A stretch of DNA of 39,763 nucleotides from Pirellulales bacterium (GTDB lineage: Bacteria; Planctomycetota; Planctomycetia; Pirellulales; JAICIG01). Within the stretch, counting starts at the first letter, position 1, and every line of letters starts with the position of its first letter. This document shows positions 36,061-39,763 of the stretch, in pieces. The stretch is taken from contig DATLUO010000011.1 in NCBI GenBank assembly GCA_035533075.1, positions 1-39,763 of the forward strand, in the 5' to 3' direction. The notes beneath the pieces are model-generated. The model was not told the DNA's origin, did not search any database, and saw nothing but the letters and a program-made list of their open reading frames with translations. A program made the position numbers and the translations under genes.

Positions 36061-36284
36061 TGCTCCCCGTGGGCGCAAATTTGCGCCCGTGGGAAAAACC
36101 CGAGGGATTTCATCATCTCGTAGTTCCCTGGTGGCATGTTTCCCGTCTACGGTCTACCGTCTACGCTCTTGTGTTGTACTCGCCGGCTGGCTTGGGCATC
36201 CCGGGCGCCGGGACAGGCCTCACGCACCGCCGTGATGAAACCCGTGGCGTCGAACACGCGGGGTATCCGCTGAGTTCTCAGCGC

Positions 36285-36312
36285 ACGGCTTTTGCAAATT
36301 TGCAAATGCCGT
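36285..36312. repeat. TTTGCAAATTTGCAAA palindrome
   Basis: A perfect 16-base AT-rich palindrome (36291-36306) extended by ACGGC / GCCGT with one mismatched pair. A second, GTTGCAAATTTGCAAC, is at 36554-36569. It may be an operator or a repeat; no intact gene is adjacent. Confidence 0.7.
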
Positions 36313-36553
36313 AGAAACACGGCGGATTTGCTCCCTCTCTCATCATGTAGGGAAACTGGCTTGCATCGCTCTCGCGATGCACTCGCCCCTCGCTTCGCTG
36401 TTTCCGATCCATCGTCTCTCATCCCTCGTCGTTATCCACAATTGCCTAATATATAGGCATTGAAATCGACGTATGCGTACAGATTAGGCACTCCGCGCTG
36501 ATCGCCCCTCCAATTAGGTACGAGATGATAAAAAACGCCGTGTTCCAACGGTT

Positions 36554-36569
36554 GTTGCAAATTTGCAAC
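36554..36569. repeat. GTTGCAAATTTGCAAC palindrome
   Basis: A perfect 16-base palindrome sharing the 14-base core TTGCAAATTTGCAA with 36291-36306. Confidence 0.7.
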
Positions 36570-36854
36570 CACCGTGCGCCGAGGTGCCGCGCTCGACCGC
36601 CGCGCGGCCCCGCTGCTCAATTCTTAGGCACGCATCCGCGGCTGCCGCGAAGGCTGCCTGACGCTCCTCGTCTCTCCCGGCGCGCCGGCATCGACCATTT
36701 GCTTTCGCGGCCAACTGGCTTGATGGCTGCTTTCCGGCGGCCACGCGGCCGGAACAGGGAGGCGGCCACGGATGGAGACGGACGGGCACGGACAAGAGTC
36801 GGCCAGCATCGTACGACGCCGATGGCTTGGGTTGTTCCAGTCGCGCGACACCGC

Positions 36855-36947
36855 CAATCCAAAATCCGCTTTCTCTCGATTGAGCCGTTGCTGGAAGACC
36901 TCGGCCCCATCAACCTTGCGGGCATTCACTGGGTGATCGCCGCCTCC
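36855..36947 (+). pseudogene. DUF5131 (phage Gp37/Gp68-like) fragment
   Basis: Thirty-one codons read SKIRFLSIEPLLEDLGPINL then AGIHWVIAAS. This is the conserved middle of DUF5131 proteins, where the usual continuation is W-V-I-x-G-G-E-S-G. Both flanks are unrelated and no start is present. The fragment sits just before the truncated hsdR, so an island rearrangement probably joined them. Confidence 0.6.
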
Positions 36948-37030
36948 GACGACTCGTTTAGGTTGCGACCTGCTCCGCGGCATCGTAAACTTGTGGTCAG
37001 TCCCAGGTTATACGTCTGACTGACAATGTG

Positions 37031-37567
37031 ATGGCCGCATGGAACTTCAAGCAATTCATCGCCGACAATAAAGACGAGTTGGAGGCGGTCCGCGTCTTTT
37101 ACAGCCGGCCCTATCGAGCGGGCCTGCGCTTCAAGGCCGTCAAGGAGTTGGCCGAGGCGATCAAGTCGCCGCCCTTGTGTGCCACGGCCGACCGTCTCTG
37201 GCTGGCGTTTCAGGCCGTCGAGCCCGAGGCGGTGAGGGGCAAGTGCGGCAAGCTCGTCGATCTGATCGCCCTGGTGCGCCACGCCATCGATCCCAACTTG
37301 CCGCTCGTCCCCTTCGGTGCCACGGTGGAAGAACGTTACCGAGAATGGCTCGCTCAGCAGCAATCGTCGCGCGTCACGTTTTCCGCCGATCAACGCCGCT
37401 GGCTCGACGCCATCAAAGACCACATCGCCGCCAGCCTGAGCATCGACCAGGACGATTTCGAATACGCTCCCTTCGCACAGCTCGGCGGCCTCGGCCGCGC
37501 CTACGACCTCTTCGGCGAGCGGCTCCCCGCCGTCCTCGAAGAGTTGAACGAGAGGTTGGCGGCATGA
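37031..37567 (+). CDS. type I restriction HsdR, C-terminal fragment
   Basis: A 178-residue open frame equal to the helical C-terminal domain of EcoEI-type HsdR proteins: AWNFKQFIADNKDELEAVRV (3-22), FYSRPYRAGLRF, LVDLIALVRHAIDP and the terminal LGGLGRAYDLFGERLPAVLE (about 151-170). The nuclease and helicase domains, some 600-900 residues, are missing upstream, where a DUF5131 fragment lies instead. The product cannot restrict DNA. Its TGA overlaps the ATG of the next small frame as ATGA, so it may still serve to couple translation to hsdS. Confidence 0.8.
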   Translation: MAAWNFKQFIADNKDELEAVRVFYSRPYRAGLRFKAVKELAEAIKSPPLCATADRLWLAFQAVEPEAVRGKCGKLVDLIALVRHAIDPNLPLVPFGATVEERYREWLAQQQSSRVTFSADQRRWLDAIKDHIAASLSIDQDDFEYAPFAQLGGLGRAYDLFGERLPAVLEELNERLAA

Positions 37568-37752
37568 ATGACGCGAAGGTTTTTTTTGGCGACGCGGGCC
37601 GCGCTCGATTTAGAAGGCCGAAGGCCGTCCGTAGCCCGGAACGGGCGTCATTCGATAGCCCAGGGTGCAACCCTGGGTTATCGAACCGCCGCGCTACAGT
37701 AGCCCTGAAAGGGCGTGACCAACTACGGGCGAATGAGAGGTTGGCCGCATGA
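37564..37752 (+). CDS. 62-residue bridging ORF made by a repeat insertion
   Basis: It starts at the ATG overlapping the hsdR stop, runs through a palindromic repeat (CCCAGGGTGCAACCCTGGG at 37659-37677), and ends NERLAA with a TGA overlapping the hsdS ATG. NERLAA repeats the last residues of HsdR. The flanks 37546-37567 and 37731-37752 are a 22-base direct repeat with two mismatches. It is probably not a functional protein. Confidence 0.45.
   Translation: MNDAKVFFGDAGRARFRRPKAVRSPERASFDSPGCNPGLSNRRATVALKGRDQLRANERLAA
37636..37730. repeat. AGCCC(A)GGG hairpin repeat between hsdR and hsdS
   Basis: Contains an AGCCCGGAACGGGCG block, a hairpin CGATA...TATCG around CCCAGGGT / ACCCTGGG (37654-37683), and AGCCCTGAAAGGGCG. 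From general knowledge, similar AGCCC...GGGCG blocks recur as dispersed repeats in planctomycetes and verrucomicrobia. Confidence 0.65.
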
Positions 37753-39763
37753 GGCGAGTTGAGGCGGCCACCATCGACTTTTCGCAGCTTCCGCCGCTGG
37801 CAAGCGGATGGGCTTGGTCAATCCCTGCGGAGATTTGCAGCGTCGTCGCCAGCGGGAGTACACCTGCCGCCGACAAGATGTTTGAGCGTGAAGGCGACGT
37901 CCCATTCATAAAAGTCTACAATTTGACCCACCGCGGGTTTCTGGATTTCAGCATCCGTCCAACATTCGTTTCCGCGGAGACACATGAAAAGGAACTGAAA
38001 CGGTCCATTACGCGACCCGGCGACGTCTTAATTAACATCGTAGGTCCGCCGCTCGGCAAAGTCTCGTTGGTGCCGAACGATTTTCCAGAATGGAATATTA
38101 ACCAGGCGGTTGTTCTTTTCCGGCCGCACGACGGCGTCTGCAATCGATACCTCGTTAATGCGTTCTTAAGCGAGGCAATCATGCGCCGCGTAACGCGTCT
38201 TGCGAAGGCGACTGCTGGCCAGTTTAACATCGGCGTTGGCATGTGCCGCCAACTGCTGCCGGTGCCCATAGCGCCGTCTAACGAACAACGCCGCATCGTC
38301 GCCAAAATCGACGAGCTTTTCTCCGACCTCGACGCGGGCGTGGCGGCGCTGGAGCGGGTGAACGCGAACCTCAAGCGGTATCGCGCGTCGGTGCTAAAGG
38401 CCGCTGTCGAGGGCCGGCTGACCGAATCATGGCGGGCGCAGTATCGACCGCAGGAAACCGGCGAGCAGCTTCTCCAGCGCATCCTCAAAGAGCGTCGCCG
38501 CAAGTGGGAAGAAGATCAACTCGCCGCCTTCGCCGTCGCTGGCAAACAGCCGCCGACGAACTGGCAAGCTCGATACGTGGAGCCGGCAACTCCGGATACG
38601 ACCAACCTCCCCACTCTTCCGGACGGCTGGTGCTGGGCGACTCTCGAAGCGTTATCAGATTTGGTCGGCGGGATCACCAAGGACCAAAAACGCGCCGCTG
38701 AGAGAGGCATTTGCGAAGTACCATATCTTCGAGTTGCCAATGTGCAGAGAGGTTTGTTAGATCTCGCTGAAATCAAGACGATCCACGCGTCCCCCGCGGA
38801 CATCCGGGATCTCCGCCTACTGGTCGGCGACATTCTTTTCACCGAAGGAGGAGACCGAGACAAGCTTGGTCGAGGATGGGTCTGGGGCGGGCAGCTTCCT
38901 GATTGCATCCACCAAAATCACATTTTCCGAGCTCGACTATTTTCAAACGAGATGCAGCCCGAGTTCATTTCACATCATGGAAACACATTCGGAAGGCATT
39001 GGTTCACGGCTGCGGGAAAGCAAACAACCAATCTTGCCTCAATCAATCTTGGGATCCTCCGCCGGTTCCCGGTTCCTGTTGCACCATCGAACGAACAAGC
39101 GCAAATTGTCTCCCTTGTCTCTGAGCGGCTTTCCCAAATCGATGCCGCCGAAATGGAAGTTGAGCAATCGCTGCTTCGTGCCGTGCGTCTTCGCCAGAGC
39201 ATCCTCAGGCAAGCTTTCGCGGGCAAACTTGTCGCTCAGGACCCTGCCGACGAGCCAGCAGCGGCGCTACTTGCTCGTATCCAACAATCGCGGGCTGCGA
39301 CAACTGTGATCCGCACAAGGGGCAAACAAGCGAGTGACGAATTCCTGCGGCGGGCGGCCATTGTTTCCTACACGGTCAATCGGCTGGCGTCGCAGCCTTC
39401 GTTCGGGCGAACGCAGCTTGAAAAAACGCTGCACCTGGCCCAAAGCCATCTTGGCATCGACCTCGGCCTTGAATTCGAGCGGTATGCCGCCGGACCCTTC
39501 GACAAGTCGCTTTACCGTCTGGAAGGGGTGGCCAAGAGAAGCGGCTGGTTCACCAAGCACGACCGCCGCCGCTTCGGCGTGACCTATCACCCCGGTCCCA
39601 AGATCGACGCCATGTGCCAGCACGCCGCGCGCCTGCTCGGCGACAAGCAAGCCGGTTTCGACCGCTTGCTCGACCAGATTGCCACCATGAATACCGACGA
39701 AGCCGAGCTCTTCGCCACCGCCTACGCCGCCTGGAACGATCTCCTCATCGACGGCCGACCGGC
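37749..39763 (+). CDS. hsdS: type I HsdS with two TRDs and a Panacea-like C-terminal extension (partial)
   Basis: The frame is open from ATG 37749 to the window end, at least 671 residues. TRD1 covers about 10-170, and conserved helical region 1 begins LLPVPIAPSNEQRRI (about 170-235). TRD2 is about 285-435, and region 2 (FPVPVAPSNEQAQIV) about 440-515. From about 530 a further domain follows: RRAAIVSYTVNRLA, FGRTQLEKTLHLAQSHLG, FERYAAGPFDKSLYRLE. This resembles DUF4065/Panacea. Both TRDs are more AT-rich than the repeats. The methylase partner is not upstream and may lie beyond the window. Confidence 0.85.
   Translation, partial: MRRVEAATIDFSQLPPLASGWAWSIPAEICSVVASGSTPAADKMFEREGDVPFIKVYNLTHRGFLDFSIRPTFVSAETHEKELKRSITRPGDVLINIVGPPLGKVSLVPNDFPEWNINQAVVLFRPHDGVCNRYLVNAFLSEAIMRRVTRLAKATAGQFNIGVGMCRQLLPVPIAPSNEQRRIVAKIDELFSDLDAGVAALERVNANLKRYRASVLKAAVEGRLTESWRAQYRPQETGEQLLQRILKERRRKWEEDQLAAFAVAGKQPPTNWQARYVEPATPDTTNLPTLPDGWCWATLEALSDLVGGITKDQKRAAERGICEVPYLRVANVQRGLLDLAEIKTIHASPADIRDLRLLVGDILFTEGGDRDKLGRGWVWGGQLPDCIHQNHIFRARLFSNEMQPEFISHHGNTFGRHWFTAAGKQTTNLASINLGILRRFPVPVAPSNEQAQIVSLVSERLSQIDAAEMEVEQSLLRAVRLRQSILRQAFAGKLVAQDPADEPAAALLARIQQSRAATTVIRTRGKQASDEFLRRAAIVSYTVNRLASQPSFGRTQLEKTLHLAQSHLGIDLGLEFERYAAGPFDKSLYRLEGVAKRSGWFTKHDRRRFGVTYHPGPKIDAMCQHAARLLGDKQAGFDRLLDQIATMNTDEAELFATAYAAWNDLLIDGRP

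Follow-up and report, generated by a model that had tools for sequence, protein, structure and literature searches.

Duplicated hsdR-hsdS junction segments around unrelated inserts in type I restriction loci of Planctomycetota

In the window, which is the whole analysed stretch of 39,763 nucleotides, the segment where hsdR ends and hsdS begins is duplicated, with one copy on each side of a short insert. The Shine-Dalgarno sequence within this segment is conserved, relatives show the junction in its empty state, and duplications of the hsdR end recur in other genomes around unrelated inserts. Overlaps between the stop of one gene and the start of the next occur commonly in bacterial operons; as a single stretch of DNA then serves both genes, insertions should be blocked there. 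The window and its relatives reveal a recurrent way round this constraint, in which the shared stretch is present twice. The recurrence at this junction suggests how tightly overlapping genes can survive splitting; probably, insertions last at this place when the segment common to both genes has been duplicated.

The duplicated junction in the window

Copy 1 of the junction (37546-37567, forward strand; GAACGAGAGGTTGGCGGCATGA) comprises the end of hsdR, a Shine-Dalgarno sequence and a stop-start overlap, whereas copy 2 (37731-37752, forward strand; GAATGAGAGGTTGGCCGCATGA) provides the Shine-Dalgarno sequence and the start of hsdS. The two copies are identical at 20 of 22 bases and are spaced 185 bases apart. 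Both contain GAGAGG 8 bases 5' of the ATG and the overlap ATGA; in copy 1, the ATG at 37564 shares bases with the TGA at 37565-37567 that ends the upstream gene. The sequence-only reading had described two 22-base copies with 20 identical bases and an ATGA overlap in each, and both the coordinates and the sequence agree with this description. By our own arithmetic, the chance that a random pair of 22-mers differs at no more than two positions within 200 bases is about 2e-8. When positions 37546-37625 were searched against the whole 8.5-Mb genome, copy 2 was, besides the query itself, the sole match spanning the 22-mer. A motif survey of 392 genomes returned a closely spaced double match in the window only, and upstream controls compared in 102 loci never had fewer than six mismatches.

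The gene that ends in copy 1 is a remnant. Its frame (37028-37567, forward strand, 179 codons) encodes only the EcoEI_R_C domain (PF08463, E 2.1e-34) and corresponds to the last ~175 codons of an hsdR of ~940 codons, so that about 760 N-terminal residues are missing. The alignment with HsdR relatives of ~940 amino acids begins at about 37040, and the sequence upstream of it has no match. The N-terminal nuclease and motor domains of a functional HsdR were absent from the window and from the genome, where the best candidate was a weak helicase match (E 6e-5). Thus, the name hsdR, which had been given to the upstream gene from the sequence alone, is borne out by the C-terminal homology to EcoEI-like HsdR, but applies to a fragment rather than to a whole gene. 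The remnant contains no stops, and compared to its nearest relative (L012, 73% identical) it has 39, 26 and 94 differences at codon positions 1, 2 and 3; it thus stayed under coding constraint during most of its history. Directly 5' of the remnant lies a fragment of a DUF5131 gene (36525-37016; PF07505, E 4e-8), and the hsdR truncation therefore joins two broken genes. Near this break, we observed an inverted repeat with 53-base arms (36277-36329 and 36531-36583, 79% complementary) that include the palindromes ACGGCTTTTGCAAATTTGCAAATGCCGT and ACGGTTGTTGCAAATTTGCAACCACCGT.

The downstream gene, hsdS (37749-39763, forward strand), is open to the contig end and carries the Methylase_S domain in two stretches (PF01420, E 1.1e-7). 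Since the ends of the two contigs overlap by 141 identical bases (window 39623-39763 and positions 1-141 of L200, the start of contig C110), hsdS very likely continues on C110. That contig encodes an IrrE-like protein, a TIR-domain protein and a 988-residue protein (L200 3004-5970) with Schlafen AlbA_2, HATPase_c_4, HsdM_N and N6_Mtase domains. Taking a Schlafen/AlbA_2 protein as such to be hsdM proved wrong; the match in the window's own genome fuses the AlbA_2 part with HsdM_N and N6_Mtase. In locus L036, the Schlafen part is a separate gene, unlike in the 988-residue fusion. Hence hsdS and hsdM look retained, and hsdR is broken.

The insert between the copies comprises 163 bases, has a strong central palindrome of 35 bases (37651-37685) and, as RNA, folds with z = -3.2 compared to shuffles. 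Around this palindrome, two GTAG-tagged stem-loops (37631-37646 and 37699-37714, with GTAG at 37631 and 37699) form the core of a REP-like repeat at about 37614-37719 (forward strand). The repeat has 50 further matches in its own genome (51 with itself), mostly to insert positions ~47-152, and is thus a high-copy short palindrome with a GTAG tag, as GTAG REP repeats are. It is not the inverted REP pair of a REPIN, as the GTAG units are direct, with insert positions 64-81 matching 132-149 in the same orientation. Among the 12 PF01797 matches in the window's genome, repeat matches lie near two (L098 and L099), more than 1 kb away, and three matches are at contig ends; no cognate transposase adjoining the window's repeat was identified in this genome. 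The 163-base insert has small frames only and no integrase gene, unlike an integrase-borne island. Outside the repeat core are the last ~11 bases of the insert, ten or so, and its first 46 bases (37568-37613, forward strand), which do not belong to the genome-wide repeat and for which a search of the own genome found no source. These 46 bases may represent a stub left from an earlier hsdS start, given that the encoded MNDAK... resembles the MSDA and MNEA starts of other hsdS genes.

Related junctions with and without inserts

To describe the junction in relatives, loci with an hsdR end were gathered by genome searches and contig scans, which resulted in 102 distinct loci after deduplication, the window included; three loci running off their contig were set aside. 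In 65 of the 102 loci, hsdS starts on the hsdR stop, and 61 of these 65 have an AGG-type Shine-Dalgarno sequence. The 37 loci other than those with direct overlap were sorted by hand: hsdS starts 4 to 35 bases past the hsdR stop in three (L022, L072 and L155), a truncated hsdS starts at the junction in two (L045 and L057), no hsdS was found in the stretch examined in 11, and hsdR and hsdS are separated in 21 (hsdS was located in 20 of these; the other, L033, has an hsdS-like start at its end). This comparison with insert-free homologous junctions, which the sequence-only reading had named as a check, supports the view that the junction without an insert is the ordinary state. The nearest genome with an empty site has a protein identity of 73% at best. 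Among plasmids, blastn found no match and tblastn seven distant ones; viral contigs yielded no relative.

Codon usage at the junction points in the same place to a dual role of the sequence. Within a set of 64 distinct junctions, 56 overlap, and codon -4 encodes arginine in 45 of the 56. This arginine codon is AGG in 45 of 45 overlapping junctions, compared to about 3.8 of 45 expected from the upstream hsdR coding sequence, where 8% of arginine codons are AGG (binomial ~1e-49, a value that is overstated as the sequences are related). The codon bias is nonetheless evident, and the last hsdR codons also serve as the Shine-Dalgarno sequence of hsdS.

A second copy of the hsdR end between hsdR and hsdS was detected in seven of the 21 separated loci at the DNA level, where a copy had to score above all of 60 shuffles, and in eight when L164 is included, which has a protein-level copy only (E 0.005; DNA score 21 vs 26) and a PIN toxin gene as insert. 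All eight cases are found in Planctomycetota. The copy comprises 22 bases in the window (score 34 vs 28 in shuffles), where the insert is the REP-like repeat, and 53 bases in L033 (50 vs 30), where it is a Y1 transposase with REPs. Copies of 72 bases in L160 (114 vs 32), 95 bases in L162 (85 vs 28) and 90 bases in L165 (44 vs 26) go along with a PIN toxin gene, a DUF3800 protein and a YhcG nuclease, respectively. In L042, a copy of 130 bases (~180 at the protein level; 195 vs 31) accompanies an AF2212-like antitoxin and a PIN-like gene that Pfam did not recognise, and in L166 a copy of 70 bases (100 vs 27) is fused to a fragment that resembles RAYT by eye and was likewise not recognised by Pfam. 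A further candidate, L157 (50 vs 25), was not counted, as it is a simple repeat and not an hsdR tail.

The tail copy ends on the hsdS start in six of the eight loci (the window, L033, L042, L162, L164 and L166); in L160 and L165, it does not end at an intact hsdS start. The copy attached to hsdR has lost either the Shine-Dalgarno sequence or the overlap in four of the eight (L042, L160, L164 and L165), a loss that is expected once hsdS has its own. The remaining 13 of the 21 separated loci have no tail copy, and in several of them (L054, L060) a cargo gene is coupled at both ends; the duplication is thus one solution at split junctions and not the sole one. In L174, the intervening gene looks like hsdM, which may represent another gene order instead of an insertion. 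The region from the hsdR stop to +1300 in L160 contains three hsdR-end pieces and two successive antitoxin-like starts; the last of the tail pieces continues into a fragment of hsdS.

Explanations for the duplication

The reading that we consider rather probable is that foreign DNA persists at the hsdR-hsdS overlap mainly when the shared segment stands on both sides, so that both genes keep their ends. As hsdS begins on the final hsdR bases in this family and has its Shine-Dalgarno sequence within the last hsdR codons, a clean insertion at the overlap would either truncate HsdR at its C-terminus or separate hsdS from its ribosome-binding site. With the shared segment on both sides, the end of hsdR would be kept and hsdS would have a ribosome-binding site of its own. 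In the window, the insert is a REP-like repeat and the duplication is limited to the minimal 22 bases; the N-terminal three quarters of hsdR are gone, lost either before or after the insertion, whereas hsdS and the linked hsdM-type methylase remain. We infer that selection for both gene ends explains the duplications, and copy 2 would be what drives hsdS translation. The shortness of the copy in the window counts against this reading. The sequence-only reading had seen preserved coupling to hsdR as the key point, which our results do not support, because hsdR is fragmentary and copy 2 carries its own Shine-Dalgarno sequence for hsdS. The duplication may have arisen through a tandem duplication before the insertion, break repair, or recombination with a circle carrying an hsdR end.

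The sequence-only reading had further attributed the duplication to the repeat insertion itself. A target-site duplication, in which insertion of the REP-like element duplicated 22 target bases, would explain why the repeat sits between two direct copies, but we consider it very unlikely. When 29 further copies of the repeat in the genome were examined, direct repeats at their flanks were not above shuffles in 28 and marginally so in one (21 vs 20), so the repeat lacks the fixed-length direct repeats of a transposon target-site duplication. The duplications also range from 22 to about 180 bases across loci, and in the window unique sequence of 46 and about 11 bases parts the repeat core from the 22-base copies. 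The proposed tie between insertion and junction duplication thus holds in that duplications recur around inserts in other genomes, but not with the repeat as their cause. Chance or decay, with a repeat happening to lie between similar stretches of a dead locus, would fit the truncated hsdR and is highly improbable: the 20/22 match falls on a functional motif, the upstream controls never came close to it, the duplication recurs in other genomes, and the hsdS frame is intact and linked to a methylase.

Two further explanations involve DNA from elsewhere. We give a minor chance to an exchange of hsdS, where copy 2 arrived with a new hsdS from a genome carrying its own hsdR end and the stub after copy 1 is the old hsdS start. 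Copy 2 is as near to the junctions of other genomes (GAATGAGAGGTTGGCGGCATGA in L013) as to copy 1, the frame following copy 1 opens with MNDAK, which resembles the starts of other hsdS genes, and is unlike the hsdS that follows copy 2, and L033 has hsdS-like starts after both copies. However, an exchange leaves the toxin-antitoxin and nuclease inserts with tail copies unexplained, and the stub in the window is very short. Circles with cargo and a piece of the hsdR end might also integrate by homologous recombination into the hsdR end and so duplicate it automatically, which we regard as unlikely. L160, with two consecutive units of hsdR end and antitoxin start (score 93) plus a third tail piece, is in line with such cassettes, although units in a row fit a tandem duplication as well. 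We further compared both copies to the 20 best-matching relatives. In L042, 19 of the 20 are nearer to the hsdS-side copy, as would be seen if the end on hsdR had been imported, whereas in L160, L162, L165 and L166 the hsdR-attached copy is the nearer one (20, 14, 19 and 18 of 20); L164 gives a mixed picture. Import of the hsdR end was therefore rejected as an explanation for all cases. A free cassette was not seen.

In the window, a frame of 62 codons without a known family (37564-37752, forward strand; MNDAK...NERLAA) bridges the two copies, and its stop at 37750-37752 overlaps the hsdS ATG at 37749. Hence the palindromic insert is indeed open in frame with stops that overlap the next starts at both ends, as had been noted from the sequence alone. 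The bridging phase is open in 16.5% of shuffled inserts and in 10 of the 29 other copies of the repeat in the genome, both before counting the one-in-three chance of the phase. Because openness is this ordinary, the bridging frame needs no selection, and we dropped it by itself as a sign of selection. In L033, a frame of 305 codons bridges the two junction copies, for which we estimate a chance of ~0.1%, the product of 0.10 (transposase part, synonymous shuffling) and 0.012 (remainder, base shuffling), although the repeats in L033 look intrinsically stop-poor. The bridging frame of L033 (4525-5442) overlaps a Y1 transposase gene that is read in a different phase. No bridging frame was among those listed for the remaining six tail-copy loci. 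A ribosome relay from hsdR to hsdS via the bridging frame is possible but unproven, and L033 keeps the idea alive. We are doubtful of a wider version, where the hsdR end, which encodes the HsdR C-terminus and holds the ribosome-binding site of hsdS, is a portable adaptor through which cargo can be spliced into the operon with translation left intact, and where the bridging frames in the window and L033 are kept open to relay ribosomes. If true, the cargo of this adaptor would be repeats, transposases, toxin-antitoxin genes and nucleases.

Implications and comparison with known systems

From our results follows a rule, open to testing, for the way in which operons of overlapping genes acquire cargo. 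Such events can be searched for by a sequence mark, a displaced gene end that contains a Shine-Dalgarno sequence. They also bear on how toxin-antitoxin and nuclease genes enter type I restriction operons.

Genomic islands of the Islander type and those at dusA or trmE reportedly restore the target gene that they split and leave a displaced fragment behind. The junctions described here are alike in that a gene end is present twice, one completing the gene and the other displaced beyond the insert. They differ in having no fixed att length, and the displaced piece is the ribosome-binding site of the next gene. No integrase was recognised by eye among the longest insert frames; the Pfam search covered ten proteins, not all of them from those frames.

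GTAG-tagged REPs, some of which end inside or at open reading frames, have been reported in Planctomycetes among other phyla (PMC3733652, in extract). The window's insert resembles these GTAG REP and RAYT (Y1) systems, as described in the same extract, in its two GTAG-tagged stem-loops of a high-copy repeat, and L033 in its Y1 transposase among similar repeats at the same junction. Unlike in those systems, the GTAG units of the window are in direct order and no cognate transposase was identified adjoining the repeat. In EcoKI, hsdM and hsdS overlap by one base and are translationally coupled (PMC3510504, in extract). The window likewise has type I restriction genes joined by a stop-start overlap, but hsdS is paired there with hsdR, coding for an EcoEI-like HsdR, and their overlap occurs twice, on either side of an insert.

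In a limited literature search, mostly of titles and listings, we found no report of duplicated hsdR-hsdS junctions or of cargo between the two genes. The coupling of type I genes through stop-start overlaps, REP repeats and islands with a displaced gene fragment are already known; within the limits of that search, what we have not seen reported is that a segment with both coding and ribosome-binding functions is duplicated around varied inserts at a single pair of overlapping genes.
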